A DNA stretch of 64,000 nucleotides from Magnetospirillum sulfuroxidans. Lineage in GTDB: Bacteria > Pseudomonadota > Alphaproteobacteria > Rhodospirillales > Magnetospirillaceae. Each line of letters opens with the position of its first letter. The stretch's first letter is position 1. Position numbers and translations under genes: made by a program. Below are positions 27,148-64,000 of this stretch, one piece after another. Under the pieces are notes generated by a model. The model was not told where the DNA came from and ran no database searches. It saw only the letters and a program-made list of their open reading frames with translations. The stretch is taken from contig NZ_JAGTUF010000001.1 in assembly GCF_018224925.1 (NCBI RefSeq), positions 186,001 through 250,000 of the forward strand, in the 5' to 3' direction.

Positions 27148-27518
27148 GGGGTTTCTCCGGTTATGCCTTGCCGTCCTGTGACGTGCAGGGAACTGGGCAG
27201 GACATGGGAAATGGATTGCGACAGCAGGCAGAATACTTCCGTACGCCAGCTACCCTACCGTTTCAACCGACTAAAGAAAAGCCTGGAATGACACCACAAG
27301 GATATTTCCCTCCGCAGATGATCGCCTCGACATTGCCAAGCCGCGGCGACACAGGTAGCGTGCCTCGTCTCTTTCCGCCCCGATGCACGGGTTCGTTCAG
27401 AGGGCGCGCCGAGCATCTGAGCGCCCCCGTGTACAATTGATTTTGTGGGCCGATTCGCCGGGCAGACAGTTCATGCCAATGAACCTTCTGTCTGGATCGG
27501 ACCACCAGGAATGTGTCC
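27148..27518. other. Divergent intergenic region, no gene seen
   Basis: 371 bases between the DUF697 gene (minus) and the AT-like gene (plus). Short ORFs here have no ribosome sites or family features. It must hold two promoters; I can point to none with confidence. Confidence 0.6.
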
Positions 27519-46530: not shown

Positions 46531-47403
46531 TCAGCGATCGCCGCCCAAGATGATCGGCAGACCGTCCTTGCCGGCGCCGATGACCACGGTCTTGGCATTG
46601 GCCGAGGTGGCCAGATCACGGGTCGCCTGCACGCCCTGCCAGCGCAACAGGTCCGGGGTCAGGCTTTTGCCGATGATCTGCTGATAGGTCTGGATGCCTT
46701 GGGCCTCGATGCGCTTGCGGTCAGCCTCTTTTTGTTCGATGGACAGGCGGTACTGGAACGCTTTGTCTTCTTCGTGCAGGGCCAGCTTGCGTTCAATGGC
46801 GTCGCGCACGGTGGCCGGCAGATCGACGGATTTGACCAACACGTCATCAATCAAGATGTAACGGTTTTCCATCTTCGACAGGCTGCTGACCACCACCGAT
46901 TCCAGAAAACCGCGATGGCTGGTATAGACCTCTTCCGGGCCGTATTGGCCAACGGCGCGGCGTAGCGCCGCCTCGGTCTCGGGGAAGACGACTTTTTCCA
47001 CGTAATTGGGGCCGACGGCCACATGCAGCAACGGCAGCATGCGGATGTCGGGCTGATAGCGGATGGCCACCTTCAATTTGACCGGCAGGCCGCCATTGGT
47101 CAGCAACGAATATTCCTGTTCGCGCGTTTGCAGGCGAACGTCATAGACGTGCATGGTGTTCCACGGCCAGATCAGGTGGACGCCTTCGCTGTAGATGTTG
47201 CCCTGGTCGGTACCGGAAAAGAAGCTGTACAGCACGCCGGCTTCACCGGATTCGATGGAAATGACCATGCGTTTCCACAGCAGGATGCCGGCCATGGTCA
47301 GGGCCAGCGACAGCAAGACGGCCATGGTTCCGTGCAGCAGGCGCTGCTGGCGGGATTCCCGTTCCAGTTCCAGCTCTGCGTAGTCGTCGTCCAAATCAGC
47401 CAT
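46531..47403 (-). CDS. SPFH-domain (prohibitin/HflK-like) membrane protein
   Basis: 290 residues. One N-terminal membrane helix (TMAVLLSLALTMAGILLWKRM), then the SPFH domain: ISIESGEAGVLYSFFSGTD, EGVHLIWPWNTMHVYDVRLQTREQEYSLLTNGGLPVKLKVAIRYQPD and EVYTSHRGFLESVVVSSL, followed by a coiled coil (EEDKAFQYRLSIEQKEADRKRIEAQGIQTYQQII). The tail ends KTVVIGAGKDGLPIILGGDR. SPFH proteins form membrane cages or lipid microdomains and often regulate proteases. The short spacing to the anchored binding protein suggests a joint membrane complex. It follows the PKS-NRPS gene by 101 bases on the same strand. Confidence 0.9.
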   Translation of the reverse strand: MADLDDDYAELELERESRQQRLLHGTMAVLLSLALTMAGILLWKRMVISIESGEAGVLYSFFSGTDQGNIYSEGVHLIWPWNTMHVYDVRLQTREQEYSLLTNGGLPVKLKVAIRYQPDIRMLPLLHVAVGPNYVEKVVFPETEAALRRAVGQYGPEEVYTSHRGFLESVVVSSLSKMENRYILIDDVLVKSVDLPATVRDAIERKLALHEEDKAFQYRLSIEQKEADRKRIEAQGIQTYQQIIGKSLTPDLLRWQGVQATRDLATSANAKTVVIGAGKDGLPIILGGDR

Positions 47404-47504: not shown

Positions 47505-50500
47505 TCACTGAGGCTTGCGGGCAGATGCCAGGGCCTCTTCCAGGACGGAAACACAAACGTCCAGGTTGGGGGGGCGCAGCAGCGAGACGTGATCGCCGGG
47601 CACGGGGCGCAGGGTCAGGCCGGCCGGGGCCAGTTCGGCCCAGCCGTCCTGGTCGTCCACCGCGCCGGCTTCGGCCCGCAGCAACAGCACCGGCACGTCG
47701 CAGGGGGCGGGCTGATAGGCCATCAGGGCGGCGTTGTTGGCCTGGAAGCGCTGGTACATCTGGCGCAAAGGGGCGGCGTCGCCCATGGGAAAATGTTCGG
47801 CCAAAAGCGTGGCGATATCGCTGTCGGGGCCTGCGCTGACGGTGATGCCGAAGACGTCGCGGGCGAACAGGGCTTGCGGTGAAAGCCCAGGACCGCTGAG
47901 GGCGTCCAGGCGGCGCAATTGCTTTGGGGTATAGCTGTCGATCAAGCACAGCAAAGCGATGTCTTCGCCGGCTTGGCGCAATTGCCGGGCCATCTCGAAG
48001 GCCAAAACCCCGCCCATGGACCAGCCGGCCAGATGATAAGGGCCGTGCGGCTGCGCCAGACGCAGGGAGTGGATATGGTGGCGGGCCAGTTGCACCAGTT
48101 CGGAACCGTCGGCGCCGGGATCGGCCAGGGCGACGACGTCGATGTCCGGGCGCAGGCGGCGGGCCAACGCGCCATAGCATTCGATGCCACCGGCCACCGG
48201 ATGAATGAGAAACAGCCGCAGCGCCGCCGACAGCGCCGGGCGCAAGGCGACCGGCGGGGAATCGGTCTGTGCGGCGGGCAAGACGCCGCGCCGGCGTGCG
48301 CGCAGCACCGTGGCCTGTTCGGCAATGGTGCGGGTATGGATGAAATCGGCGGCGTCGGCCGGGCATTGGAAGGTGGCGGCGATTTCCGACAACAGCCGTA
48401 GCCACGACAAGGAATGGCCGCCGCAAGCGGCGAAATCGTCATGAACACCCAAGCTGGTGGTTTCGCGCCCCAACACCTTGGCCCAGAGCCGCAATAACCC
48501 GGCTTCGACACCATCGCGGGCGCTGTCGCTAATGTCGGTGCCGTTGGCGCCGCCGGGGCGCTGGCTGGCCGGATCGGGCAGGGCGGCGCGGTCCAGCTTG
48601 CCGCTGGTGGTCAGGGGCAGCGCCGCCAGGGTGACATAGGCGCTGGGGAGCATGTGCGGCGGCAATCGGGCGGCCATGTGGGCGCGCAAGGCGGCTTGGT
48701 CCAGGGTGTCGGCCGTCACCACATAGGCAACCAGCACTTGGCCGCCGATGGCGTCCTGGCGCGGCACCACCGCCGCTTCGCGCAGGCCAAAGGCGGTGAG
48801 CGCCGTTTCGATCTCGCCCAGTTCGATGCGGAAGCCGCGAATCTTGACCTGATGGTCAACCCGGCCGTGAAAGGCGACGATGCCGTCGCTGCCGGGGATG
48901 AAGGCGGCCAGATCGCCGGTCCGGTACAGTCGGACGCCATCCTCGGCCCGGATGAACTTTTCGCTGTTGAGTTCGGGGCGGTGATGATAGCCCAGGGCCA
49001 GACGGCTGCCGCCGACCAGCAATTCGCCGATCACCCCCTCGGGCAGTGGATTGCCGTTGCCATCGACGATCCGGATTTCGGTGCCGGGCAGGGGGCGGCC
49101 GATGGGGATGCTTGTCCCTGGCGGGGCGTCATCGACGTCGTGCAACAAGCAGGTGATGGTCGCCTCGGTCGGGCCATAAGCGTTCAACAATCGCGATGCT
49201 GCCAGCGGGCTGGCGTGCCACAGCCGGACGGTGTCGGGTGGCAGGGCTTCGCCGCCGACGATAACCAGGCGCAAATCCGGGACTAAAGGCAAATCCGGCG
49301 GCGCGGCGCCGTCGTGTTGCCAGGCCAACAGAACCTCGCGCAGGTAAGCCGGCGGCAGGTCGGCGACGGTGACCGCTTGCTCGACCAGGATGCGGCGGAA
49401 TTTATCGGCGGTCCACACCGGGCCGTTGCGCAGCAATAGCCGCGCCCCCACCGCCAAGGCTGGTAAAATCTGTTCCAGCGCCGTGTCGACCACATGGGGG
49501 GCGAATTGCAAAACGACATCGGCGGCAGTGAGGCCATAGGCATCGATGACGGTGCGGCAATGATCGGCGATGGCCTGATGCGACACCACCACCCCCTTGG
49601 GCGTGCCCGTCGAACCCGAGGTATAGATCATATAGGCGGCATCGCCGCCGGCCGGCAGTTGCTTGGGCATGCCGGCCTTTTGCTTGCCGATGGCCTTGGC
49701 GTCGGCTTCAAGGTCGATCAGGGGCGGGGCATGGGGCGGCAGCCGTTGCGCCAGGGCGGCTTGGGTGATGATGATCCGGGCGCCGCAATCGTCCAGCATG
49801 GCGGCCAGCCGATGGGGGGGGGCGTCGGCGTCCAGCGGCACCCAGATGCCGCCGGCGACCAGCGTCGCCAGCACGGCGACGATACTGTCGGCGCCGCGCC
49901 CCAAAAGCACGGCGACGGCATCGCCGGGGCCGATGCCGCGCTTGCGCAGATAGCGGGCCAGCCGATGGGCGCGGCGGCTGAGCTGGCGATAGCTCAAGGC
50001 CTGACCATCGGCGGTGACGGCGATGGCGTCGGGGGTGGCCTTGGCTTGGGCGGCGATCCAATGCGGCAACAGGCCGTCCCTCGGCGGCAGGGCTTCGGGT
50101 TTTGCCCACCGTCCCAGCAGCCGCTTGCGTTCCGCCGCCGACAGCAGTTCAAGGGCGGCGACGGGGCTGTCGGGCTTGGCGCACACGGCCTTGCACAGGC
50201 GGGCAAAGCGTTCCAGCAGGCGTTCGATCGTGGCGGCGTCGAAGCGGGCGCCATCATAGCCGGCGACCAGCACCAGGCCATCGCCATCCTCATAGAGCTC
50301 CAGACCGAAGGGGCCATCCCCCGGTTGACGGATTTCAGCGATAAAGCCGGCCTGGCCGGCGCTCATGGGGAAATTCTGATAGGCATAGCTGACGTGATAG
50401 GGCGGCTCGCCGTGCAGACTGCCGCCGAGGTCGCGGGCGATGGCGCTAAAAGGATAATCGCCGTGGTCCAGCCCGTCCATCAACCGCCGATGGGCGTCGC

Positions 50501-53500
50501 GCAACACGTCGGCGGCGCTGGCTTGGCCGCTCACCCGGCAGCGCAGGGCCAGCATGTTGACGAAATAGCCGATGGACGTGGCGAAATGACGGGTCGGACG
50601 CCGCAAGACCGGCACCCCGATCACCATGTCCGATCCGCCGCCATGGCGGTACAGCAAGATGGTCAGGATGCCCAAGAACAGCGCCGCCGGGGTGATGCCC
50701 AGGCTGGTGGCCAGCCGCCGCGCCGCCTTGACGGTGGTGGCGGGCAGGCGGTGTTCCAGGCTTTGGCCATCAATGACGGCGCCCGCCGCCGCCGGACGGT
50801 CGGCGGGCAATTCGATCACCGGCAACGGAGCTTGCAGCGTCTGAAGCCAATAGGCCCGCTGTTCGTCGCCGCGAGCAGAGTTCATCAGCGCCCGTTCCCA
50901 GGCGGCGAAATCGGCGAAATCCCCCCCGTCGGCCACCGGCGCGGCGCGGCCGGCGGCCACGGCGTCATAGGCCGCCCACAGCGCCGTGGCCAAAACAGCG
51001 GCGGAAGCGCCGTCGAAAACCATGTGATGGATGGTCAGCAACAAGATTTCATGGCTGTCGGCCAAGGCGCCGCCATGCAGCACTTGGCACCGGCTGGGGG
51101 CGGTTTGGCTTAGGCTGAAGGGGTGGGTCGTCAGCCGGCGGGCAAAATCCAGCGGCTCCATGCCCTTGGGCAATTCGATGCGGTGCAACGGCGTCGGCTC
51201 GCCGGCATGCAGCCACAGATCGTCCTCGGTCTCGATGACCCGCGCGGTCAAGATCGGGTATTGGGCCTGAACATGCCGCCATGCCTGATCCAGGGCTTGG
51301 ATGTCGATACGGTCGAGGCGGAAAGCCAGCGGCACGTTATAGGTTCCGGCCTGGGGGTAAAGCGATTGCAGGACCCACAGACCTTTTTGCCCTTCGGTCA
51401 GCGGCATGCGCCATGGCCCGGCGGCGGCGGCGGCGGCGGTCAGCGGCGGCGGCATCGCCGCCGCCCTGTCGCCCAGATGCGCGGCCAAGGCGGCGGGGGT
51501 GGGAAAGTCTTCAAGCATGCGGTTGCTGAGGGCGGTGCCGGTGGCTTCCTCGATGGCGAAGCCCAGACGCAAGGCGATCATGGAATCGACGCCAAGGGCG
51601 CGGAATGAAAGAGTGGTGTCGATCTTGTCCGCCGCGACCCCCAATTCCTGGGCCAGCACGGCGACGATGATATCCCGGCTGGGCGCGGGCGGCGGCGCTG
51701 GCGTTGGCGGCGGGGGGGCTGCGTCGTCGATCCAATGGCGGTCGCGGGCGAAGGGATAGCCGGGCAGGATCAGCGGCGGGCCGAACGGTCCCGGCTCGTC
51801 CGTGGCCAAATCCTCCCAGGTTTCGCCCAGTCGGATGCGGCCCAGCTTGTCGTGCAGCTCGGCGCGGCTGGCGGCGACGATTTGAACGGCGCATTCCAGC
51901 TTCTCGCGTCCCTGGCACAGGGTCTGGGACAGTCGGGCCAGGGACAGATCGGCGGTGCGATGGACGTAAGCGCTGAGGTCCGCCACGATTGCCGCCAGCT
52001 GTTCGGGCGTGCGGGCGGAAAGCGGAAAACGACGCGGCCGCGCCGTCTCGGCCGGTGCCGGGAGTGCCGGGCCTTCCTCAAGGATCAGATGGACGTTGGA
52101 GCCGCCGGCGCCGAAGGACGAGATGGCGGCGCGGCGCGGCATCTCGGCGCCATCGACCTGCCGACGCGGCCAGGCGACGTTGTTCCATTGCGGCACGAAC
52201 GGGGTGGCGGTGAAATCCATGGCCGGATTGGCCTTGGCCGGCCGCAACGAGGCGACCAGCCGGCGATGCTGCATTTGCAGCAAGACCTTGGTCAGTTGGG
52301 CCAGACCCGAGGCGGCCTCGGCATGGCCCATATTGGTTTTGACCGACCCGATGGGGCAGGGCTCGGCCCCGCCGCCAAAGGCCCGGCTAAGGGCGCGCAG
52401 TTCCATGGCGTCGCCCAGGCCGGCGCCGCTGGCGGCGACCTCGATATAGCCGATCGAGCGGGGGTCAAGGCCCGAGCGGCGCAAGGTGTCGCTGATCAAC
52501 TGGGTTTGAGCCTCGGCGCTGGGAACGCCGAAGCCAGCGGAATGGCCGCCGTGATTGGCGCCGCTGGCTTTGATCACCGCCAGCACCGCGTCACCGTCGC
52601 GCAAGGCATCGGCCAACGGCTTCAACAGCACCGCCCCCACCCCTTCGGCCGGCAAATAGCCATCGCCATCGGCGAAGGCGCGGCTGTCGGCGTGGCTGCC
52701 GATCAAGCCGGCGCGGCTAAGGCCCTGGTATTTGATTGCCCGTGGCGACAGGCTGACGCCGCCGGCGATGGCCAGCCGGCATTCGCCGGATTTCAGGCTT
52801 TGACAGGCCTGATGCACCGCCTGTAACCCGGACGAGCACATGCAGTCGATGGCAAGGCTGGGGCCTTGCAGGTCAAAGAAAAAGGATACCTTGTTGGCGA
52901 TGACGCCATAGGAATTCAGCGCCAGCAATGCCTTGGCGTCGCCATCGCCGTCGATGGCGCCGTAATGCTGGAACATGGCGCCGACGAAGACGCCGACCTT
53001 GCGGTCGTAATCGCGCCGCAGCCGTTCCCGCGGCAGGCCGGCCCGTTCCAGCAAATGCCAGGTGTTTTGCAGGAACAACCGTTCTTGCGGATCGGCCAGC
53101 GCCGCCGCTCGGGGGGAATAGCCGAAGAATGCGGCGTCGAATTCGTCGATGCCGTCGATGAAGCCGCCCCATTTGCAATGACTGGCGCCGGGCTTGCCCT
53201 TTTGCGGCGCGTATAAAGCATCCATGTCCCAGCGGCCGGGCGGTGTCTCGGTGACGCAATCGCGGCCCTCGGCCAGGACCTGCCAGAATTCCTCGACCGT
53301 CCCGGCGCCGGGATAGCGGCCGGCGACGGCGATGATGGCGATATCGTCAGCGGTGGCGGCGCTGGTGGTGGCGGCGCTGGTCTGGGGTTGGGGGGGCGGG
53401 GGCGGCCGATGATCACGGTCCAGGGCCGCGCTCAGTTGGCCGATGGACGGATGTTCGAACAGCAGCGTTGCCGGCAAGGGGCCGAAATGGCGTTCCAAGA

Positions 53501-56500
53501 CCGCCATGATTTCCAGGGCAGACACCGAATCGACGCCAAAGCGATCCAGCGGCGCCGCGGCGGTCAGCTTATCGGTGGGAACGCGCAGCACTTCGGCGAA
53601 ACAGGCGGTGACTTTCTCGATTGTCCGTTCCGGCGCGGCGGCGGTGGAAAGTGTGGCCGGCGCGGGCATCAGCATGCGGCGCAGGCGGTCGTGGTCGCCG
53701 TCCAGCACCAGGATTTGTTGTTCCGCCGTCTGGGCCAAAGCGGCGTCAAGGGTTGCCATGGCGGCGGCTGTCGCCAGCGGTCGCGCACCGACCATGCGGT
53801 CCATGGCGGCGATGATTTCGGCCTCCAGACGCATGCCGCCGTCTTGCCAATAGGGCCAGTCGAGGGCGATGGTGCGGCCCTGCCGCTGCCCTTGCGCCAC
53901 CAAGCGATTGCGGTGGGCGGCGAAGGCGTCGAGATAGGCGTTGGCGGCGGCATAATCGGCTTGGCCGGCATTGCCCAGCGCCCCGGAAACCGAGGCGAAC
54001 AAGGCGAAGAAATCCAGCTGGATCTTGCCGCTGGCCTGATCCAGGGCAATGGTGCCGGCGACCTTGGGGGCCAATACGGCGGCCAGATCGTCGGTGGATT
54101 TGCGCACCAGCAGGCTGTCGCGGGTCAGTCCGGCGGCGTGGATGATCCCGTGCAGGTGGCCATGGCCATAGACGATGTCATCGACCAAGGCGGTGAGGGC
54201 GGCGGTGTCGGTGACGTCGGCTTGGCGGTAATGGATGTCGGCGTCCAGACCGTCAAGGCTGTGCCGCGCTTGCGCCGATAGCGGCGAACGGCCGATCAGC
54301 CACAGCACCGGCCGGCGGCAGGAGCGGGCGATCGTCGCGCACACATGCAGGCCGACACCGCCGGCGCCGCCGCTGATCATATAGACGCCGCCGTCGCGCC
54401 ACGGCCCTGGCGCGGGCGCCACCGTCAGTTCCTGCCATTGACGCACCAGCCGGTGGCCGTGCTGGTGGCGGATATCGGCATCGGCGGTGGTCTGATCGGC
54501 GTTCAGTCGGGCGACGATGTCAGCGGCTTGATAATCCAGGCTGATTAATTGGCAGCGCAGGCCGGGGCGTTCCTGGACGGCGCTGCGCAGCATGCCGCCC
54601 AGCCCTTCCTGCAAAGTGCCGTGCGGCAGCACCACTTGGACCAGGGCGCTGTCGGGGCGCTGCTTGAACAGGCTTTGCAACATTTCCAGCAAATGCTTCG
54701 CCTGTTCGGCGTAATTGTCGCCCTTGAGCACCTGCACCTCGGCCGGAGCCAGGGCGGCGGTCAGGCTTGGCGGCAGATCGGCTGGCGGCTGGCACAGCAC
54801 CACCAACCGGTGTCCGGTTTGGATACTGCCCTCGGCGGCGCGCTGGCGCCAGCGCGGCGCGAACAACAGCGGCAGGGACTGGGGGGGCGGCAGCGGCAAG
54901 GCTTGGCGGGGGGCGCTGCCCGGCAGCCAATAGCGTTCGCGAGCAAACGGATAGGGCGGCAGGGCTATGCGGCGGGCAGCAGGGGGGGATGGCCAGAGCA
55001 CCCGCGCCCCGGCGATCCAGGCGGCGGCCAGGGTGTCGGCATCGGTGGCGGCCGGGGGCTCGGCCCGACCGGCGCGGCCCCGATAAAAACCGGTGGTGGC
55101 GCCGGCGAGGAAGCGGTCGAGTCCGGCGATCACGTCGTCGGGCGTGGTGGCGACAATGGCCAGCCGTTCCTCGAATGCCTCGCGGCCCTGTTGCAAGGTG
55201 AAGGCCAGGGCGGCCATGTCGACGGCGGTCAGGGGCAGCACGGCGGCGCGCAGGCGTTCGGCCATCTCTCGCAGCCGTTCCGGGTCGCGGGCCGACAGCG
55301 GATAGACGTCGCGGCACAGGGGCTGCGCCGCGACGGAGGGGATGGGATATTCCTCGATGATCAGATGGGCGTTGGCGCCGCCGGCGCCGAACGATGACAG
55401 CCCGGCCAGACGCGGCCGACCGCGCTGGGGCCAAGCGGCCCGCTGGCGTTGGACGACAAAGGGGGTGGCGGCGAAATCGATGCCGGGATTAAGGCTGTCG
55501 GCGTGCAGCGACGGCGCCAAGACGCCGTGGCGCATCTGCAACAGCACCTTGGCCAGCCCCGCCATGCCGGCCGCGCTTTCACAATGGCCGATATTGGATT
55601 TGACGCTGCCGATGGGGCAAAAGCCGCGCTCTGCGGTATGGCGGCCATAGGCCTTGGTCAGGGCGGCGATTTCGATGGGGTCGCCCAGTTTGGTGCCGGT
55701 GCCGTGCGCTTCCACATAGCCGATATCGCGGGCCGAGATGCCGGCCCGCTCCAGCGCCTTGCCGATCACCGCCGCCTGGGCGTCGGGATTGGGCACGGTA
55801 TAGCCGTTGGTCTTGCCGCCATGGTTAACGGCCGAGGCGCGGACGATTCCCAACACGCGGTCGCCGTCGCGCCGGGCATCGGCCAGCGGCTTCAGCAACA
55901 CGGCCCCCACCGCTTCGCCCGGCACATAGCCGTCGCCGCCTTGACCGAAGCTTTCGCAACGGCCATTGCTGGCTAAAAAGCGTCCCTGAGCCAAACCCAA
56001 ATATTTGTTGGGGTGCAAGCTCAGATTGACGCCGCCGGCCAAGGCGACGCTGCAATCGCCCGAGCGCAGGGCCTCGCAGGCCAGATGGATGGCGGTCAGC
56101 GAGGACGAGCACATGGTGTCCAGCGCCATGGACGGGCCGGAAAAGCCGCAAAAATAAGATACCCGGTTGGCGATGGTGGCGGCGGAGCCATTCAGGGCTT
56201 GCGGGTGGCCGGCCGCGGTCGGCGCCGCGCCGTAAAGCTGGTATTCCTGGTACATGACGCCGACGAAGACGCCAACCTCGGCCGTGGCCAGGCTGTGGCG
56301 GGTGTGGCCGGCGTCTTCCAGCGTTTCCCAGGCGCATTGCAGGAACAGGCGTTCCTGCGGGTCCATGAATTCGGCTTCACGCGGGGCGATGTTGAAGAAC
56401 ATGGGGTCGAAACAGTCGAAATCATCGACAAAGCCGCCCCATTTGCTGTTGGTCTTGCCCTTGGTCCCCGGTTTGGCGTCGAAAAAGCGGTCATGATCCC

Positions 56501-59500
56501 AGCGCTCGGCCGGGATTTCGCCGATACAATCCTTGCCTTGTTCCAGATTGCGCCAAAATTCATCCAGAGTGCGGGCGCCGGGGAAACGGCCGGACATGCC
56601 GATGATGGCGATGGGAGCATGAGGGGCGGCCGGGGCGGCGGCCGGCTGTCTGTCCGGCAGAGGCTTTCCGCCACCGTGCGGCGGCGGCTCTGGCGGCTCT
56701 GGCGGCGGTGTGGCTCCCAGCAGGCGGGTAAGAGTGGGGCCGTGATGGGCGGTGAAATAGCCGGCCAACGCCGCCAGATCGCGGTATTCGAAGAACAAGG
56801 TCTTGGGCAATGGGCCGAAATCGGCTTCCAAGGCGTCGGTAAGGCGAACGATCATGATCGAATCGATGCCATAGACCTCGAACGGCGCTTCGGCCTCGAT
56901 GTCGTCGATGGCGATCGCCGCTTCGCGCGCCACCAATTCGGCCAGATGACGCCGGGCCGCCGCCGTCAGATCAGGCTTGGCCGTGCCGGTGTTGATTTCG
57001 CGCCCGGTCTTGATTTCACGTAAGGTAAAGCCGCTCAGGCGCAGACGGATGACGCCGTCGTCATCGGCCAAGTCCAGATCCAGCTTGTGGATGCCGCCGG
57101 TGCTGATGCCGCGCCGCAGATGCACCCACATGGCGGCGGTGGTCGGGGCCAAGGCTTCCAGCCGATCCAGGCCGAAGGGCAGGGCGGTGACGGCGCCGCC
57201 CTGGTCCTGGAACAATCCCAACGCCGCCTGGAAGGCGCCATCGACCATGCTGGGGTTAAGGCCGAAATGTCCGGCCGCCGCCTCGGGCAGGACCAATCGG
57301 GCCAGGGCTTCGCCCTTGCCGATCAGCACGTGGTGCAGCGGGCGGAAGGCGGGGCCGTAATCCAATCCCAGCTTGGCATAGGTGGCATAAAGGCTTTCCG
57401 CCGCCAAGATCGCGGGGCAGCGGGCGCGGATGTCATCCACCGGCATGGTTTCAGCCCGCGCCGCCATGGGCGAGATCAGCCCAAGCATGTGCGGGGTGGA
57501 ATCGGGGCCACCCGATAGCAGGCGGAAGGTTTGGCCGCCATCGTCGGTGGGGGCCAGCGGCACGGTGATGGTGACGGCGCCGCTATCGAGCCGCAGCGGG
57601 TGCTGCCAGACCACCCGGCTGAGCATGGTCGGAGCGAAGGGCTTGCCGGCGGCACCGGCGGCGCGGGCCAGTTCCAGCCCCATGGCGCCGGGCAGGATGC
57701 GGGTCCCCATGACCCGATGATCCCTGAGGACAAAGTCCTCGGCTTCCAGGCTTTGGCTGAACACCGAAGGCGCGGCGGCGACCCGCGCCGCCGCGCCGGC
57801 GAAAGTGCCGTTGATGTGGTGGACGTCGCGGGCGAAGGGATAGGTTGGCAGACGCAGGCGGCGGCGGGCCTTGGGGTAAAGCGCCGGCCAATCGACCGTG
57901 TCGCCTTGGACCCATTGTCTGGCCAGATGCTCGGCCGGGCTGTCCGGGGCCACCAGCGGACCGGTTTTGTGGCCGGCTTCCAGCTTGCCCACCGCCAGGC
58001 CGGTATGATCGTCGGCCAGGAAGCGGCTCAGGCCGTCACGGGCCTGATCCAGCGAGTTCACCACCAGCGCCAGCCGATGGCGCATGCCGTCACGGCCGAT
58101 TTGCAAGGTATAGGCAAGATCGGGCAATTCAGCCTCGGCAACCCGGCCGGCGGCCAGGAAGGCCAGCAGATTGGCGGCTTGATCCCGCACGCGCTGGGGA
58201 TCGTGCGCCGACAGGACCAGCACCAAGGACCCGGCATGCCGGGCCGGCGCGGTGGTGGCGGGGATGTATTCCTCAAGGATCACATGGCCGTTGACGCCGC
58301 CGAAGCCGAACGAGCTGACGCCGGCGCGGCGCGGCAACGGCCGGCCGGCGGCGTCAACGGCCGGCTGCCACGGCTGGGCCGTGCCGATAATGCGCAGCGG
58401 AGTGCCGGCAAGGTCGATATAGGGATTGATTTGCTGGCAATGCAGGCTGGGGGCCAAGGTGCGGTGGCGCATCTGCAACAGCACTTTGATGATGCCGGCC
58501 GCCCCGGCGGCCAGTTCCAGATGGCCGATATTGGTCTTGACCGAACCGATGCCGCAATCGCCGCCACAATCGCCAAAGGCGGCTTTCAACGCGTTGATTT
58601 CGACCGGATCGCCCAGCGGGGTGCCGGTGCCGTGGGCTTCGATATAGCCGATGGTGGCTGGGGCGAAACCGGCGCGGGCCAGGGCTTCACGGATCAACTG
58701 GCTTTGTGCGCTGGTGTTGGGGGCGGTCAACGAATTGGCCCGGCCGCCATGGTTGATGGCGCTGGCCTTGATCACGGCGATGATCGGATCGCCATCCCTT
58801 TGCGCCTCGGACAGCCGGCGCAGCACGATCATGCCGATGCCTTCGCCCCGCACATAGCCGTTGGCGTCGGCGGAAAAAGTCTTGCAGCGGCCATCGGGCG
58901 ACAGCATGCCGGCCTTGGCGAAATTGATGTGGGCTTCGGGGGTGACGATGGTGTTGACGCCGCCGATCACCGCCATTTCGCAATCGCCGGCACGGATGGA
59001 TTGCACCGCCCGGTGCAGCGCCACCAGCGAACTGGAACAGGCGGTTTCCACCGGTTCGGACGGGCCATGCCAATCAAGGAAATAACTGGTGCGGTTGGGG
59101 CCGACCGAGGGCACCGCCCCGGTGGCGACATACCCCTCGGCCCCGGTATCGTCGCCGATGATGTCGCGATAGCCGCTGGACGAGGTGCCGACGAACAGCC
59201 CGATTTTGCGTCCGGCCAACGAGCGTGGCGCGTGGCCGCAATCCTCGATCGCCTTCCACACATGCATCATCAGCAAGCGTTGCTGCGGGTCCATCAGCTT
59301 GGCTTCGCGCGGGGAAATGCCAAAGAACAACGGGTCGAATTCGAACACGCCGTCGATGAAGCCGCCCCAATGGATGTTGGTCTTGCCCGGATTTTCCTTG
59401 GGATCGCCGTCAAAGGCCCGCCAATCCCAGCGATCGGCGGGGATACGGGAAATGCAGTCGCGGCCGTGAACCAGATTGTCCCAAAAGGCGTCGCCGTCCA

Positions 59501-62500
59501 ACGCCTGGGGAAAACGGCAGCTAAAGCCGACGATGGCGATGGAATCGTCGTCGGCGGCCGGAGGGGCGCTGATCCGTTCGGGCGTGGCGGCGGCGCGCAG
59601 GGGCGCCGCCGCTTTCGGCTTTGGCGGCGGTGCGAATTTTGCGGTGCCGGCGATGTGGCCGGCCAAGCGGTTCAAGGTGGCGAATTCGAAGAAATCGGCA
59701 GGGGTCAGCGTCAGCGTCAACGCGGCGTTCACCTTGCTGGCGAAGCCGGTCATGGTGATGGAATCAAAGCCGAATTCGCCCAATTCGCTGTCGGGGTCCA
59801 GCACAAGGGGATCGACTTCAAGGACGCCGGCGGCGATGGCGGTCAGCGCCGCCAGAGCGGCGCCGATGGGGGAGGTTTCTTCCGCCTGGATTTCCGGTTC
59901 GGGTTCGGGTTCGGGTTGCGGTTCCGGCATCGGGGCGCCGGCATGCGCAGCCGGCGGGGTGAGCGCAATTGCCGCAGCGCTGTGCGGCCAATGGCGGGTC
60001 CGGGCCAATGGATAGGGCGGCAACGCCACCCGGCGGCCGGTCGCGCTGTCGGCCCAATTGACAGTGAGGCCGCGGACCCACAATTCGGCCAGGCCGTCGG
60101 CGCGGCCACGGGTGGCCAGACCGGCGATGGCGCGACGCATTTCGTCATCGCTTTCCAGCACCGAGACGGCGGCGCGGTTGATCTTGACCCGGCCTTGGTG
60201 CAGGGTGGCGTCGGGTTCGCCGCTCAGGAAGGTCTCAAGCCGCTGCGCGGCCTGGGCGGCCGAGGTGGCGACGAAGGCCAGCCGGTGCTCCAGCCCCTCG
60301 CGTCCGGTTTGCAGGGTAAAGGCGATATCGGCCAAAGCCTCTGGGGTTTGGCGCAGGTGGTCGCGCAAGATCGCCGCCCATTGGGCCAAGGCGTCGGGAG
60401 TGTGGGCCGACAGCACCAGCAGCACCGGCCCGCTTGCCGGGGGGGGGATCATCGGCGCGGCCGGGTATTCTTCCACCACCACATGGGCATTGGCGCCGCC
60501 AAAACCGAACGACGAAACCCCGGCGCGGCGCGGCAGCGGATGGCCCTGGTTGTCTTGCGGCGGAAGCCAGGGCCGGGTATCGCGCACCACCGTGAACGGG
60601 CTGCCCTCTAATTTGAGATAGGGGTTCAGCTCGTGGCAATGCAGGGTCTTGACCAAGGTGGCATGGCGCAATTGCAGCAGCACCTTAAGCAACCCGGCGA
60701 TGCCGGCGGCCAGTTCCAGATGGCCGATATTGGATTTGACGCTGCCGATACCGCATTGCATCGCCGGGGCGGGGCCGTATTCGGCGGCGGCGGTGGCGGT
60801 CAGATCGGCGAAGGCGGCGCGCAGGGCCTCGACCTCGATGGGATCGCCCAACGGGGTGCCGGTGCCGTGCGCCTCGATATAGCCGATGCTGCGCGGGTCG
60901 ATGCCGGCGCGGCGGTGGACCGTGCGCAGCAGGTCGGCTTGGGCCTTGGGATTGGGGGCCGTCAGCGAACTGGCGCGGCCACCATGGTTTTCACCACTGG
61001 CGCGAATTACGCCCAAGATGGTGTCGCCATCGCGCTCGGCCGCGCTGAGGCGTTTAAGCAGCACCAGCCCGATTCCTTCGCCGCGGGCATAGCCGTCGGC
61101 GGCGGCCGAGAAGGGCTTGCAATGGCCATCGGCGGCCAACATGCCGGCCTTGGCGAAGCCGACATAGGCGTCAGGCAGCAACAAGGCATTGACGCCGCCG
61201 GCGATGGCCATCTGGCAATGACCGCCGGCAATGGCTTCCACCGCCCGGTGGACGGCGACCAGGGCGCTGGAACAGGCGGTTTCCACCGCGAGGCTGGGGC
61301 CGTGGAAATTGAAATGATAGCTGATCCGGTTTGGCCCCAATGACGGCGCCAGAGCGGTCATGGAATAGCCTTCGATACCGGTACCGGCCTGGGTCAACAG
61401 CCGGCCGTAGCCGGTGTCGGCGGTGCCGATGAAAACGCCGGTATCCGAACCTGACAGCGATTTGGGGGCGATGCCGGCATTTTCGAACAACCGCCACGCC
61501 TGGGTCAGCAGCAGCCGTTGTTGCGGGTCCATCATCCGCGCTTCGGGCGCCGACAGGCCAAAGAAACCGGCGTCGAATTCGGCCATCTCGTCGATGAAGC
61601 CGCCCCACCGAATGTTGCAGCGGCCCGGCTGGGTTGCGGGGTCGCCCCAGTAATCGCGCCAGTTCCAGCGCTCGGCCGGGATTTCGCCGATGCAATCTTG
61701 GCCCTGTTCCAGGTTACGCCAGAACGCTTCGAGATCGGGCGAGCGCGGGAACAGGCCGGTCATGCCGATGATGGCGACGGCATCGCGGCTGGGGGGGGCC
61801 ATCGTGGCGGCGACATCGGCGACCGGGGCCGGTGGTGGTGGTGGTGGTGGTGGTGGTGGCGGCGTTGCGGCGGCAGGGGCGGAGAGGGGCGCCGTCACCC
61901 CCAAGCGGGGGGCCAGGTCGGCACCGTGGCGCTGGCAGAGATATCCGGCAAGACCGTCCAAGGTCGGATGTTCGAAAAACACCACCGGCGTCAGGTCAAG
62001 ATCGAAGCTGGCGTTCAAGCTATTGGCGAATTGGGTAAAGCCGATGGAATCGAAACCGTATTCGGTCAGTTCCTGATCGGCATCCAAATCGGCCAGATCG
62101 ACTTTCAATTGCTTGGCCGTGGCTTGCATCACGGCGGCAAGGATGGCGTCGCGCAGCGCCGGAGCGGCCATCGTCGCCGTCGCCGTGGGCGTGACGGAGG
62201 GCGGATCGGCGATGAAGCGGCGGCGTATTTTGTCGCCGTCGCCGATGGCCACCGCCACCCGCGCCGATTTGGCGGCGATGGCGGCGGCCAAAGCGCGCAA
62301 GCCGTCGCTGTTGGACAAGGCGACCAGGCCGGTGGTTCGGGTCATCAGCGCCTGGGTGTCGGCATCCATGCGCATGCCGCCCTCGGCCCAGAATGGCCAG
62401 GCGATGGAAATCATCGGCTGGCGGGACTTGGCGGCCCAGCCATCCAGGAAACCGTTGGCGGCGGCGTAATCGCTTTGACCGGGATTGCCGAAGATTGCCG

Positions 62501-64000
62501 ATAGCGACGAAAATACGACGAAGAAATCCAGCGCGGCCATGCCCAGAGCATTTTCCAGGTTGACGGTGCCCTTGACCTTGGGGGCCAGCACGTGCGCCAA
62601 AACGTCTGAAGTCTTTTTGCTAATGGCTTGATCACACTGGAAACCAGCGGCATGCAAGATGCCATCCAGGCGGCCGTGAGCACGGCGGATAGCGTCAACC
62701 AGGGCGGTGGTGGCGACGGCATCGGCCAGATCGACGCGATGGTAATCGGCGCCGATTTTGTCAATCCAGCTTTGCGCCGCCGCATCGGCGGACGAACGGC
62801 CAGCCAGGGCGATGATCGCCTGCGGCGCATCGGCGCGGATGGCCTCGGCCAATAATCGGCCCAATCCGCCCAAGCCACCGGTAATCAGATAGACCTTGCC
62901 GTTTTTCCAAGGGGCGGGGCTGTCGGTCACCGTCATCGGTTGCCACGATTCCACCTGCAAATGCGTGCCGTTCAGGCGCAGCAAGGCACCGCTGGCGGCG
63001 GCATTATCCAGGTGATGGGCGAGGGTGGCGCCGTCCACCGTGGTTGACGCCAGCAAGGTTTGTCCATGCAGGCCGGGCATTTCCAGCCCGGCGCTGCGCA
63101 GCATGCCGGCCAGCCCGGCCAGTTCCGGCCGCTCTTGCGGAATGACCAAGCCAAGGCGGGTTGGTCCGCGCAGATTTTGCAAATGCCCCAGCAGGGTATC
63201 GGCCATGGCGGCGAAATCAGTCCCGATGTGGTGACAGGTCCAGCCGGGCAGGGCGGCGAAACCATCGGCCAGCAGGGCCAGCCGGGGGATCGTGTCGCCG
63301 TGGGCATGGCCGTCCGCGTCGTGCCAATGCGGGGTGAACAGCAGCAAATCCGGCCGACGTTCGGCGGCGGCGGGCAGCCGGGTGGCGAAACCACGCAAGC
63401 GGACACGCAATCCACCATCATGGTCGTATAGATCCATATCCAGACTGCGGACGCGCTGGGCCTGTTCCGCCCCCTTGGCCGGATAGACATGGACCCACAT
63501 GCGGGCGGTGCACGGCCCCAAGATGTCAATGGCATTGACGGCGAAAGGCAAGGCGGCGCCTTCGGCGGCGGCGCCAGCATCATTCAGGGTGACGCCGATG
63601 GCGGCCTGAAAAGCGCCATCCAGCAGACTGGGATGCAAAGGATAGGCGGACAAAGTGGCGGCGATTGAGGGCGGCAGGTCCAGTCGGGCCAATACCGAAT
63701 GGCCGTCAATGCTGGTTGACAATTGGCTGATGGCGCGATGACCAGGGCCATAACGCAGGTCCATGGCGTCGAAAGCGGCGTAAATCCGAGAGGCGGCAAA
63801 GACGCGGGGATGGTCGGCTTGCAGGCTGGCCAGATCAACCGTGGCGGCGCTTGCGGCATCGTCGCCCAGGCGGATCTGGGCGTGCAGGACACGGTCGCCA
63901 TCGGCGGTCAGACTGGCGATTTCCACCAGGGATTGCGCTCGGTGCAGGGTGATTTCAGCATTCAGCCGGCCACTGACCGCCATCGGCTTGATCCACACCA
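47505..64000 (-). CDS. Giant trans-AT polyketide synthase / NRPS, C-terminal part (5' end outside window)
   Basis: At least 5,498 residues, open to the right edge; only the end is seen. No AT domain follows any of the four KS domains: each is followed by a 100-residue post-KS linker ending in PPYPxAR.xHW. Order (residues counted from 63998): DH 1-215, KR 365-555, ACP 625-690; KS1 744-1177, ACP 1380-1445; KS2 1485-1912, DH 2070-2330, ACP 2345-2415; KS3 2462-2884, KR 3010-3410, ACP 3455-3525; KS4 3552-3972, ACP 4110-4170; C 4195-4610, A 4647-5110, PCP 5155-5225, TE 5260-5490. Phosphopantetheine sites read GFDSI, GFDSI, GIDSI, GVDSV, GVDSM and GGHSL. The final C-A-PCP-TE adds one amino acid and releases the product. 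The apparent start at 63998 is an artefact. Confidence 0.95.
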   Translation of the reverse strand, partial: VWIKPMAVSGRLNAEITLHRAQSLVEIASLTADGDRVLHAQIRLGDDAASAATVDLASLQADHPRVFAASRIYAAFDAMDLRYGPGHRAISQLSTSIDGHSVLARLDLPPSIAATLSAYPLHPSLLDGAFQAAIGVTLNDAGAAAEGAALPFAVNAIDILGPCTARMWVHVYPAKGAEQAQRVRSLDMDLYDHDGGLRVRLRGFATRLPAAAERRPDLLLFTPHWHDADGHAHGDTIPRLALLADGFAALPGWTCHHIGTDFAAMADTLLGHLQNLRGPTRLGLVIPQERPELAGLAGMLRSAGLEMPGLHGQTLLASTTVDGATLAHHLDNAAASGALLRLNGTHLQVESWQPMTVTDSPAPWKNGKVYLITGGLGGLGRLLAEAIRADAPQAIIALAGRSSADAAAQSWIDKIGADYHRVDLADAVATTALVDAIRRAHGRLDGILHAAGFQCDQAISKKTSDVLAHVLAPKVKGTVNLENALGMAALDFFVVFSSLSAIFGNPGQSDYAAANGFLDGWAAKSRQPMISIAWPFWAEGGMRMDADTQALMTRTTGLVALSNSDGLRALAAAIAAKSARVAVAIGDGDKIRRRFIADPPSVTPTATATMAAPALRDAILAAVMQATAKQLKVDLADLDADQELTEYGFDSIGFTQFANSLNASFDLDLTPVVFFEHPTLDGLAGYLCQRHGADLAPRLGVTAPLSAPAAATPPPPPPPPPPPAPVADVAATMAPPSRDAVAIIGMTGLFPRSPDLEAFWRNLEQGQDCIGEIPAERWNWRDYWGDPATQPGRCNIRWGGFIDEMAEFDAGFFGLSAPEARMMDPQQRLLLTQAWRLFENAGIAPKSLSGSDTGVFIGTADTGYGRLLTQAGTGIEGYSMTALAPSLGPNRISYHFNFHGPSLAVETACSSALVAVHRAVEAIAGGHCQMAIAGGVNALLLPDAYVGFAKAGMLAADGHCKPFSAAADGYARGEGIGLVLLKRLSAAERDGDTILGVIRASGENHGGRASSLTAPNPKAQADLLRTVHRRAGIDPRSIGYIEAHGTGTPLGDPIEVEALRAAFADLTATAAAEYGPAPAMQCGIGSVKSNIGHLELAAGIAGLLKVLLQLRHATLVKTLHCHELNPYLKLEGSPFTVVRDTRPWLPPQDNQGHPLPRRAGVSSFGFGGANAHVVVEEYPAAPMIPPPASGPVLLVLSAHTPDALAQWAAILRDHLRQTPEALADIAFTLQTGREGLEHRLAFVATSAAQAAQRLETFLSGEPDATLHQGRVKINRAAVSVLESDDEMRRAIAGLATRGRADGLAELWVRGLTVNWADSATGRRVALPPYPLARTRHWPHSAAAIALTPPAAHAGAPMPEPQPEPEPEPEIQAEETSPIGAALAALTAIAAGVLEVDPLVLDPDSELGEFGFDSITMTGFASKVNAALTLTLTPADFFEFATLNRLAGHIAGTAKFAPPPKPKAAAPLRAAATPERISAPPAADDDSIAIVGFSCRFPQALDGDAFWDNLVHGRDCISRIPADRWDWRAFDGDPKENPGKTNIHWGGFIDGVFEFDPLFFGISPREAKLMDPQQRLLMMHVWKAIEDCGHAPRSLAGRKIGLFVGTSSSGYRDIIGDDTGAEGYVATGAVPSVGPNRTSYFLDWHGPSEPVETACSSSLVALHRAVQSIRAGDCEMAVIGGVNTIVTPEAHINFAKAGMLSPDGRCKTFSADANGYVRGEGIGMIVLRRLSEAQRDGDPIIAVIKASAINHGGRANSLTAPNTSAQSQLIREALARAGFAPATIGYIEAHGTGTPLGDPVEINALKAAFGDCGGDCGIGSVKTNIGHLELAAGAAGIIKVLLQMRHRTLAPSLHCQQINPYIDLAGTPLRIIGTAQPWQPAVDAAGRPLPRRAGVSSFGFGGVNGHVILEEYIPATTAPARHAGSLVLVLSAHDPQRVRDQAANLLAFLAAGRVAEAELPDLAYTLQIGRDGMRHRLALVVNSLDQARDGLSRFLADDHTGLAVGKLEAGHKTGPLVAPDSPAEHLARQWVQGDTVDWPALYPKARRRLRLPTYPFARDVHHINGTFAGAAARVAAAPSVFSQSLEAEDFVLRDHRVMGTRILPGAMGLELARAAGAAGKPFAPTMLSRVVWQHPLRLDSGAVTITVPLAPTDDGGQTFRLLSGGPDSTPHMLGLISPMAARAETMPVDDIRARCPAILAAESLYATYAKLGLDYGPAFRPLHHVLIGKGEALARLVLPEAAAGHFGLNPSMVDGAFQAALGLFQDQGGAVTALPFGLDRLEALAPTTAAMWVHLRRGISTGGIHKLDLDLADDDGVIRLRLSGFTLREIKTGREINTGTAKPDLTAAARRHLAELVAREAAIAIDDIEAEAPFEVYGIDSIMIVRLTDALEADFGPLPKTLFFEYRDLAALAGYFTAHHGPTLTRLLGATPPPEPPEPPPHGGGKPLPDRQPAAAPAAPHAPIAIIGMSGRFPGARTLDEFWRNLEQGKDCIGEIPAERWDHDRFFDAKPGTKGKTNSKWGGFVDDFDCFDPMFFNIAPREAEFMDPQERLFLQCAWETLEDAGHTRHSLATAEVGVFVGVMYQEYQLYGAAPTAAGHPQALNGSAATIANRVSYFCGFSGPSMALDTMCSSSLTAIHLACEALRSGDCSVALAGGVNLSLHPNKYLGLAQGRFLASNGRCESFGQGGDGYVPGEAVGAVLLKPLADARRDGDRVLGIVRASAVNHGGKTNGYTVPNPDAQAAVIGKALERAGISARDIGYVEAHGTGTKLGDPIEIAALTKAYGRHTAERGFCPIGSVKSNIGHCESAAGMAGLAKVLLQMRHGVLAPSLHADSLNPGIDFAATPFVVQRQRAAWPQRGRPRLAGLSSFGAGGANAHLIIEEYPIPSVAAQPLCRDVYPLSARDPERLREMAERLRAAVLPLTAVDMAALAFTLQQGREAFEERLAIVATTPDDVIAGLDRFLAGATTGFYRGRAGRAEPPAATDADTLAAAWIAGARVLWPSPPAARRIALPPYPFARERYWLPGSAPRQALPLPPPQSLPLLFAPRWRQRAAEGSIQTGHRLVVLCQPPADLPPSLTAALAPAEVQVLKGDNYAEQAKHLLEMLQSLFKQRPDSALVQVVLPHGTLQEGLGGMLRSAVQERPGLRCQLISLDYQAADIVARLNADQTTADADIRHQHGHRLVRQWQELTVAPAPGPWRDGGVYMISGGAGGVGLHVCATIARSCRRPVLWLIGRSPLSAQARHSLDGLDADIHYRQADVTDTAALTALVDDIVYGHGHLHGIIHAAGLTRDSLLVRKSTDDLAAVLAPKVAGTIALDQASGKIQLDFFALFASVSGALGNAGQADYAAANAYLDAFAAHRNRLVAQGQRQGRTIALDWPYWQDGGMRLEAEIIAAMDRMVGARPLATAAAMATLDAALAQTAEQQILVLDGDHDRLRRMLMPAPATLSTAAAPERTIEKVTACFAEVLRVPTDKLTAAAPLDRFGVDSVSALEIMAVLERHFGPLPATLLFEHPSIGQLSAALDRDHRPPPPPQPQTSAATTSAATADDIAIIAVAGRYPGAGTVEEFWQVLAEGRDCVTETPPGRWDMDALYAPQKGKPGASHCKWGGFIDGIDEFDAAFFGYSPRAAALADPQERLFLQNTWHLLERAGLPRERLRRDYDRKVGVFVGAMFQHYGAIDGDGDAKALLALNSYGVIANKVSFFFDLQGPSLAIDCMCSSGLQAVHQACQSLKSGECRLAIAGGVSLSPRAIKYQGLSRAGLIGSHADSRAFADGDGYLPAEGVGAVLLKPLADALRDGDAVLAVIKASGANHGGHSAGFGVPSAEAQTQLISDTLRRSGLDPRSIGYIEVAASGAGLGDAMELRALSRAFGGGAEPCPIGSVKTNMGHAEAASGLAQLTKVLLQMQHRRLVASLRPAKANPAMDFTATPFVPQWNNVAWPRRQVDGAEMPRRAAISSFGAGGSNVHLILEEGPALPAPAETARPRRFPLSARTPEQLAAIVADLSAYVHRTADLSLARLSQTLCQGREKLECAVQIVAASRAELHDKLGRIRLGETWEDLATDEPGPFGPPLILPGYPFARDRHWIDDAAPPPPTPAPPPAPSRDIIVAVLAQELGVAADKIDTTLSFRALGVDSMIALRLGFAIEEATGTALSNRMLEDFPTPAALAAHLGDRAAAMPPPLTAAAAAAGPWRMPLTEGQKGLWVLQSLYPQAGTYNVPLAFRLDRIDIQALDQAWRHVQAQYPILTARVIETEDDLWLHAGEPTPLHRIELPKGMEPLDFARRLTTHPFSLSQTAPSRCQVLHGGALADSHEILLLTIHHMVFDGASAAVLATALWAAYDAVAAGRAAPVADGGDFADFAAWERALMNSARGDEQRAYWLQTLQAPLPVIELPADRPAAAGAVIDGQSLEHRLPATTVKAARRLATSLGITPAALFLGILTILLYRHGGGSDMVIGVPVLRRPTRHFATSIGYFVNMLALRCRVSGQASAADVLRDAHRRLMDGLDHGDYPFSAIARDLGGSLHGEPPYHVSYAYQNFPMSAGQAGFIAEIRQPGDGPFGLELYEDGDGLVLVAGYDGARFDAATIERLLERFARLCKAVCAKPDSPVAALELLSAAERKRLLGRWAKPEALPPRDGLLPHWIAAQAKATPDAIAVTADGQALSYRQLSRRAHRLARYLRKRGIGPGDAVAVLLGRGADSIVAVLATLVAGGIWVPLDADAPPHRLAAMLDDCGARIIITQAALAQRLPPHAPPLIDLEADAKAIGKQKAGMPKQLPAGGDAAYMIYTSGSTGTPKGVVVSHQAIADHCRTVIDAYGLTAADVVLQFAPHVVDTALEQILPALAVGARLLLRNGPVWTADKFRRILVEQAVTVADLPPAYLREVLLAWQHDGAAPPDLPLVPDLRLVIVGGEALPPDTVRLWHASPLAASRLLNAYGPTEATITCLLHDVDDAPPGTSIPIGRPLPGTEIRIVDGNGNPLPEGVIGELLVGGSRLALGYHHRPELNSEKFIRAEDGVRLYRTGDLAAFIPGSDGIVAFHGRVDHQVKIRGFRIELGEIETALTAFGLREAAVVPRQDAIGGQVLVAYVVTADTLDQAALRAHMAARLPPHMLPSAYVTLAALPLTTSGKLDRAALPDPASQRPGGANGTDISDSARDGVEAGLLRLWAKVLGRETTSLGVHDDFAACGGHSLSWLRLLSEIAATFQCPADAADFIHTRTIAEQATVLRARRRGVLPAAQTDSPPVALRPALSAALRLFLIHPVAGGIECYGALARRLRPDIDVVALADPGADGSELVQLARHHIHSLRLAQPHGPYHLAGWSMGGVLAFEMARQLRQAGEDIALLCLIDSYTPKQLRRLDALSGPGLSPQALFARDVFGITVSAGPDSDIATLLAEHFPMGDAAPLRQMYQRFQANNAALMAYQPAPCDVPVLLLRAEAGAVDDQDGWAELAPAGLTLRPVPGDHVSLLRPPNLDVCVSVLEEALASARKPQ
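47508..51430 (-). other. NRPS module C-A-PCP plus TE
   Basis: C domain with LTIHHMVFDGAS. A domain with IYTSGSTGTPKG, LNAYGPTEATIT, YRTGDLAAF, KIRGFRIELGEIE and SGKLDR; eye-aligned to GrsA the pocket reads D235-T236-E239-D278-I299-G301-A322-I330-T331-K517. PCP: ACGGHSLSWLRL. TE: GWSMGG and GDHVSLL. Two acidic pocket residues suggest a basic amino acid such as Arg, Lys or Orn. Confidence 0.82.
51440..53345 (-). other. PKS module: KS4 (non-elongating KS0)-ACP
   Basis: Active-site Cys present (DCMCSSGLQAVH) and TNMGHAEAASG present, but the HGTGT position reads IEVAASGAGLGD, with Ala for the catalytic His. This is the mark of KS0 domains that only pass the chain on. ACP: ALGVDSMIALRL. Confidence 0.88.
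53420..56620 (-). other. PKS module: KS3-KR-ACP
   Basis: KS3 complete (LDTMCSSSLTAIH, EAHGTGT, SNIGHCESAAG). KR with ISGGAGGVGLHV, FASVSGALGNAGQADYAAANAYLD. ACP with RFGVDSVSALEIM. Gives a beta-hydroxy intermediate. Confidence 0.85.
56740..59560 (-). other. PKS module: KS2-DH-ACP without KR
   Basis: KS2 complete (ETACSSSLVALH, EAHGTGT, TNIGHLELAAG). DH has HRVMGTRILPG (HxxxGxxxxP) and NPSMVDGAFQAAL. No KR between DH and ACP (YGIDSIMIVRL). The needed ketoreduction must come from elsewhere, for instance the KR two domains downstream, or the DH may act on a different substrate. Confidence 0.82.
59580..61780 (-). other. PKS module: KS1-ACP (no modifying domain)
   Basis: KS1 has ETACSSALVAVH, EAHGTGT and SNIGHLELAAG, so it is catalytically complete. 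It is followed by the post-KS linker and an ACP (EFGFDSITMTGF). The linker before the ACP has a PEPQPEPEPEPE repeat. The beta-keto group would stay unless a trans-acting enzyme acts. Confidence 0.85.
61815..64000 (-). other. PKS module: (KS outside window)-DH-KR-ACP
   Basis: DH second half with HPSLLDGAFQAAIG (catalytic Asp). KR with ITGGLGGLGRLLAEA, FSSLSA and DYAAANGFLDGW (Ser and Tyr present). ACP with EYGFDSIGF. The module should reduce and dehydrate its beta-keto group to an alkene. A poly-Pro linker (11 prolines in a row) from a GGT repeat at 61834-61862 leads to the next KS. Confidence 0.85.
61834..61862 (-). repeat. GGT microsatellite coding the poly-Pro linker
   Basis: About nine to ten perfect GGT units on the plus strand (ACC, Pro, on the coding strand were it read in that frame as CCA/CCG/CCC) between ACP1 and KS1. 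Copy-number change would only change linker length. Confidence 0.8.

Follow-up and report, generated by a model that had tools for sequence, protein, structure and literature searches.

Sesbanimide-type assembly lines

The closest described system is the sbn cluster of Magnetospirillum gryphiswaldense MSR-1, the trans-AT PKS-NRPS line for sesbanimide R. According to the available sections of its description, the residue attached to the polyketide is L-arginine, as established by NMR and Marfey analysis, the last KS lacks its first active-site His, and a missing enoyl reduction is assigned to the acyl-CoA dehydrogenase SbnX (PMC8262917). Arginine-free sesbanimides have been reported from Stappia indica and Roseibium with the same kind of terminal module (PMC8262917; PMC12997852, both cited from partial text), and an inactive A domain has been suggested for S. 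indica PHM037 (PMC8262917). The gladiofungin/gladiostatin cluster of Burkholderia gladioli has the same glutarimide block, published as KS-DH-KR-ACP-KS-B-ACP, and the same AT, ACP and amidotransferase starter genes, but as far as the accessible part of its account goes, it uses release by an AfsA domain and is without an NRPS terminus (PMC10574677). Glutarimide PKSs have already been noted in Magnetospirillum (PMC7930024, available part); in the literature searched, most subscription papers lying outside it, no description of the cluster of the strain studied here was found.

The terminal synthase

The window, the whole stretch of DNA analysed, is 64,000 nucleotides long and corresponds to bases 186001-250000 of contig C11 in the Magnetospirillum sulfuroxidans genome (4,132,710 bases in 60 contigs); 160 kb, free of N, were used. 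Coordinates below are those of the window unless a contig or locus is named. The orthologue of sbnQ lies on the minus strand at 47505-64000 and continues past the window edge. Its start is probably the ATG at window coordinate 66464, and the open frame as a whole has 6,365 codons. The part at 47505-63998, which a sequence-only reading had given as at least 5,498 codons of a single frame, is the C-terminal part of this larger frame and encodes 5,497 amino acids plus the stop. A chance frame is ruled out by the length of 19 kb together with a KS family match in its C-terminal half (Pfam, E=1.4e-169).

Domains were located by a Pfam search and then by HMMs, for which the genome's own domains served as seeds and which were iterated across every synthase in the comparison. 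The full order in SbnQ is ACP-KS-DH-KR-ACP-KS-ACP-KS-DH-ACP-KS-KR-ACP-KS-ACP-C-A-PCP-TE. Within the window, and all on the minus strand, it begins with the DH of module 7 (63378-64000), which is cut by the window edge and starts just over it, and the KR of the same module (62367-62909). There follow an ACP (61932-62138), the eighth KS of the line (60465-61781), an ACP (59646-59852), the ninth KS (58266-59543), a DH with the HxxxGxxxxP motif (57018-57764), an ACP (56748-56951), the tenth KS (55347-56615), a KR (53826-54401), an ACP (53415-53618), the eleventh KS (52071-53345) and a further ACP (51468-51674). The NRPS terminus consists of a condensation domain with HHMVFDG (50118-51404), an adenylation domain with the code DTEDIGAITK (48597-50048), a PCP (48297-48503) and a thioesterase with GWSMGG and GDH (47568-48215). 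The motifs of ACP, C, A and TE were all found in SbnQ. The earlier tally of four KS, five ACP, two DH and two KR domains ahead of an NRPS terminus with TE is exact, with one PCP to be added.

In the eleventh KS, Ala replaces the first active-site His, as it does in MSR-1, and the domain is therefore read as non-elongating. In the first DH of SbnQ, Ser takes the place of Gly in HxxxGxxxxP. Loss of this DH was considered and rejected, since the same position varies in relatives (Asp in Magnetospirillum sp. 64-120, Glu in M. fulvum).

No AT family match (PF00698) was found in SbnQ or SbnO by Pfam at E up to 0.01. Two discrete ATs are present, an AT-ER protein (C11:273426-275747) and an AT at 27513-28490, so that the modules without AT and the separate ATs have the make-up of a trans-AT line. 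The sequence-only reading had arrived at discrete ATs from the KS domains with no AT downstream, and had named integrated ATs in the unseen N-terminal part as a finding that would speak against it; none was found there.

The line to the right of the window

The same reading had placed the start of the line to the right of the window, with SbnQ as its last protein, and this is where the other components lie. The gene for SbnP, a flavin monooxygenase (PF00743; C11:252461-253810, minus strand), is situated between the two PKS genes, so that a split module with a monooxygenase gene in between is present, as in sesbanimide lines. Next come the second PKS, SbnO, of 6,548 amino acids (C11:253783-273429, minus strand), and the AT-ER protein SbnN, encoded on the same strand as sbnQ. 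With 609.7 bits, the ER half of SbnN scores above the PfaD-family cut-off of 449.25 bits. Both PKS frames, each of more than 6,300 codons, are open.

The domain order of SbnO is KS-DH-KR-ACP-KS-B-ACP-KS-KR-ACP-KS-(weak ACP)-MT-ACP-KS-ECH-ACP-ACP-KS-DH*, where DH* is a degenerate match. The glutarimide block thus stands at the N-terminus. Its B domain was assigned from where it lies, from a weak PS-DH match and from a model whose seed came from the genome itself and which also matches MSR-1. Beyond the AT-ER gene there are two ABC exporters, a PPTase, an FkbM methyltransferase, a P450 and an HMGS-KS-ECH cassette with an ACP. The beta-branching set is complete, with HMGS, KS, ECH and ACP, and with an ECH domain and tandem ACP in SbnO. 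The PPTase gene (L012:11184-11942) has homologues in the clusters of M. sp. 64-120, M. fulvum, PHM038 and S. indica; none was found in the MSR-1 cluster. A gamma-glutamyltranspeptidase gene (L013:652-2241) stands beside the cluster's ECH gene. From sbnN to sbnQ the GC content is 66.8% vs 60.9% and 62.1% in the flanks; for the MSR-1 cluster a similar contrast, 66.7 vs 63.2%, is given in the available text of PMC8262917.

Correspondence with the MSR-1 line

One genome of the same genus (G002) was taken as MSR-1, since its distance from the sbnN ATG, as placed here, to the sbnQ stop is 41,295 bp, equal to the deletion size published for that strain (PMC8262917, available sections). KS domains were compared in six genomes: our own, MSR-1, Magnetospirillum sp. 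64-120, M. fulvum, Roseibium PHM038 and Stappia indica SBBC 49. In the tree of the 66 domains, each of the 11 positions forms one six-member clade (support 100/96 to 100/100), and the Cys/His/His pattern is the same as in MSR-1 at 11/11 positions. The KS clades, a check proposed together with the initial suggestion of a sesbanimide product, thus agree with the sesbanimide line and nowhere contradict it.

The locus is like the MSR-1 sbn cluster in its gene order N-O-P-Q, the domain orders of both PKSs, the 11 KS positions and the A-domain code, and also in having sbnA, the tailoring, beta-branching and starter genes and two ABC exporters; the suggestion, made from the letters of SbnQ, is borne out at each of these levels. 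Identity to MSR-1 is 62% for SbnQ (6,452 alignment columns), 63% for SbnO, 83% for SbnP, 71% for the AT-ER protein, 80% for HMGS, 76% for SbnJ, 83% for SbnK and 69% for SbnA. Unlike MSR-1, the line has PKSs that are only about 62% identical, displaced sbnA and sbnK-sbnJ genes and a PPTase gene, and its contig is without an acyl-CoA dehydrogenase that could be SbnX. Roseibium aggregatum PHM038 and Stappia indica (SBBC 49) share with it the two PKSs, the monooxygenase, the C-A-PCP-TE terminus and the PPTase homologue, but they differ by an extra DH in module 8 and by reported products without arginine (PMC8262917, available sections).

We conclude, with a probability of about 0.92, that the frame encodes SbnQ, and that SbnQ is the later of the two giant synthases in a trans-AT PKS-NRPS line of the sesbanimide type. 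Since the MSR-1 line attaches L-arginine, the predicted product is sesbanimide R or a close congener, most likely a cytotoxic polyketide ending in arginine.

Scattered genes and neighbours

The sbnA orthologue, a discrete AT that is named an acylhydrolase in MSR-1, lies in the window on the plus strand (27513-28490), 19 kb from sbnQ. It adjoins a DUF697 gene (26554-27147, minus strand), as it does in MSR-1 too. Two minus-strand genes next to sbnQ encode a Band_7/SPFH protein (46531-47403) and a Peripla_BP_6 protein (45176-46525), and both adjoin sbnQ in the same 4/5 relatives compared, M. fulvum being the exception. Homologues of the Band_7, periplasmic-binding and DUF697 genes adjoin sbn genes in MSR-1, M. 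sp. 64-120, PHM038 and S. indica. Between the sbnA/DUF697 pair and sbnQ are MCP, AhpC/AhpF-like, RecQ and Pst/PhoU/PhoB-type genes. Directly beside the pair, on the plus strand, is a gene for a 529-amino-acid protein with the eCIS core domain PF13699 (24862-26451), which is perhaps part of an extracellular contractile injection system.

The glutarimide starter trio (AT, ACP and an asparagine-synthetase-like amidotransferase) is present but displaced. The carrier gene sbnK and the amidotransferase gene sbnJ are at about C11:332.5-334.7 kb, some 46 kb past the ECH gene. Among 33 genomes searched, 32 have sbnJ, and 29 of the 32 have it on the contig that also carries the terminal module; the gap between the two is about 1.3 to 50 kb in 28 of these 29 and 95 kb in our genome. 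In five whole clusters (MSR-1, M. sp. 64-120, M. fulvum, PHM038 and S. indica) the gap is filled by cluster genes and close neighbours, and in the remaining genomes it was judged by size alone. At E<=1e-40, sbnA is not universal, being found in 23 of the 33 genomes and not in the other 10.

Alternative readings

The same kind of line could make a different product, with another or no amino acid or with another reduction of the tail. The PKS identity of about 62%, the altered residue at the first DH motif and the arginine-free sesbanimides from Stappia and Roseibium strains (PMC8262917; PMC12997852, partial text of each) would fit such a divergence, but the A code, the KS positions and clades and the KR and DH positions are all those of MSR-1, and a different product appears rather unlikely. 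A more specific variant, a swapped amino-acid specificity, came up because the terminal module is 57-62% identical to its nearest relatives vs 81-85% for SbnP. It was rejected on two grounds: the code is unchanged, and the whole PKSs, too, reach just 60-63% identity with MSR-1, M. fulvum and M. sp. 64-120.

Displacement of the starter genes sbnA, sbnK and sbnJ from the core could instead mean that the cluster is inactive, and the distances (about 46 kb for sbnK-sbnJ, 19 kb for sbnA) as well as the housekeeping-type genes between sbnA and the core lend this some weight. However, the displaced genes are full length and keep 76% (SbnJ), 83% (SbnK) and 69% (SbnA) identity to MSR-1, and neither PKS frame of more than 6,300 codons is interrupted, making inactivity improbable. 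That the stretch is M. gryphiswaldense MSR-1 itself, with nothing new in it, would agree with the same genus and architecture, but has next to no chance with SbnP only 83% and SbnQ only 62% identical to the genome taken as MSR-1.

The terminal amino acid

Ten columns of the A domain were chosen by motif, presumably matching the Stachelhaus positions. The resulting code, DTEDIGAITK, is identical in our genome and MSR-1. As the MSR-1 residue is L-arginine, L-arginine is predicted here also. The A domain was readable in 31 SbnQ proteins, our own and that of MSR-1 included, and all 31, over a range from Magnetospirillum to contigs labelled Acidobacteria, keep the D, E, D, G and T of the pattern D-x-E-D-x-G-x-x-T. 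The exact code occurs in 16; in each of the remaining 15, one to three positions deviate, and one of these sequences is in addition cut before the last position. In a MAG labelled Stygiobacter X1 (L150), whose SbnP is nearest to that of MSR-1, the A domain differs from the others by an in-frame insertion of some 40 residues.

For the A domain, dN/dS comes to 0.08 and 0.19 in the two Stappia pairs compared and to 0.26 and 0.28 in the two from Magnetospirillum; for the whole protein the values are 0.19-0.26. The A-domain value is slightly above that of the whole protein in the pair MSR-1/X1. In three of the four pairs TE is the least constrained terminal domain; in MSR-1/X1 the values are 0.32 for C, 0.28 for A and 0.27 for TE. 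A dead A domain in Stappia is not favoured, the strains of the dN/dS comparison being other than PHM037. On sequence grounds, the pocket shared by PHM038 and S. indica speaks for later removal of the arginine, or for missed detection, over a lost specificity. A peptidase common to the PHM038 and S. indica clusters and absent in Magnetospirillum was sought in three flank ORFs of PHM038; these are ParA-like, DUF697 and ABC ATPase genes, and none is a peptidase.

Enoyl reduction

In the genome taken as MSR-1, PF00441 has a single match in the vicinity of the cluster, at 1668927-1669364 and some 8 kb ahead of the exporters, and this was taken as SbnX. None of the 8 PF00441 matches in our genome is on contig C11, and the cluster contigs of M. 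fulvum and PHM038 have no match. The nearest match lies about 38 kb outside the cluster in S. indica and about 18 kb beyond the amidotransferase in M. sp. 64-120. Because it is absent inside the clusters of several relatives, SbnX is not treated as defining. A full-length AT-ER homologue is found in 6/6 clusters, its ER half confirmed by Pfam in our genome and MSR-1. This difference in distribution leads us to prefer the ER half of SbnN, which appears the better trans-ER candidate.

One may combine these points into a single proposal, in which arginylation is the ancestral and general last step of sesbanimide-type lines, the Stappia and Roseibium products are trimmed and do not reflect a dead A domain, and enoyl reduction is carried out by the SbnN ER half and not by SbnX. 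Taken as a whole, the proposal is tentative, and we would put it somewhat short of an even chance.

Relatives and distribution

A search with SbnP gave 79 loci, of which 35 were taken forward (L053, L054, L058 and L060-L100 being left out). SbnP occurs in 6/13 genomes of the genus, our own included (E<=1e-100). In the SbnP tree, drawn without the row of Labrenzia DG1229, which has a stop inside its match, our genome branches first in a Magnetospirillum-Phaeospirillum clade, the others being grouped with support 94/84. The terminal module was matched in 34/35 genomes (E<=1e-100), with the Dickeya and Serratia matches (32-35% identity) being those of a general NRPS. Five of the 35 are without domain annotation: Burkholderia Ac-20379, Magnetospirillum W65, Dickeya, Serratia and MAG51. 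The oocydin-type clusters of Dickeya and Serratia have an SbnP-like flavin monooxygenase (59-60% identical) on a long branch of the SbnP tree whose position is not firm. The oocydin-type assembly line differs from the sesbanimide line.

The comparison comprised 32 SbnQ proteins, including our own and that of MSR-1, many of them cut at the N-terminus by the 20-kb stretches used or by contig ends. The C-A-PCP-TE terminus is present in 30 of the 32; in the other two a contig end truncates the protein. Module 8 was readable in 27, of which 12 have an extra DH and 15 do not. The carriers are Stappia, Roseibium, Aureimonas, Rhodobium, Oceaniovalibus and one Acidobacteria contig; the DH is absent from Magnetospirillum, Roseospira, MV-1, Azorhizobium, Breoghania and others. 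We draw no history of this domain, since on the SbnP tree its distribution takes three changes, several of the branches are weak, and there is a long-branch warning.

In Labrenzia sp. DG1229 (L153, L027), also the source of the SbnP match with a stop, and in Aurantimonas (L139), SbnQ is spread over several frames, reflecting either decayed copies or assembly errors. Sesbanimide-type SbnQ was also seen on contigs labelled Acidobacteria and beta proteobacterium (L148, L157, L154); judged from these MAG contig labels, the line may extend beyond alphaproteobacteria.

Proposed pathway and significance

While the parts, their order, the KS active-site residues and the KS orthology are read from the DNA, the biosynthetic steps are modelled on the published MSR-1 pathway. 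The amidotransferase SbnJ would make a malonamoyl starter on the carrier SbnK, and the discrete ATs would supply malonyl units. SbnO would then form the glutarimide through KS-DH-KR-ACP-KS-B-ACP, extend and C-methylate the chain and, with the HMGS cassette, install an exomethylene. At the module split between SbnO and SbnQ, SbnP would insert oxygen in a Baeyer-Villiger reaction, giving an ester. SbnQ would add the unsaturated tail, the missing enoyl reduction being most likely performed by the SbnN ER half, and its non-elongating KS would hand the chain to the C domain. L-arginine, selected by the A domain, would be coupled by SbnQ and the acid released by TE.

The line is an orthologue of a characterised pathway in another species of the genus, with its layout rearranged. 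It provides, for comparison, a diverged line with the architecture of MSR-1, and it touches on the puzzle of an arginine module in clusters whose reported products are free of arginine. The displacement of sbnK and sbnJ suggests that a scan of some 20 kb around the core of such a cluster could miss the amidotransferase and carrier for the glutarimide starter.
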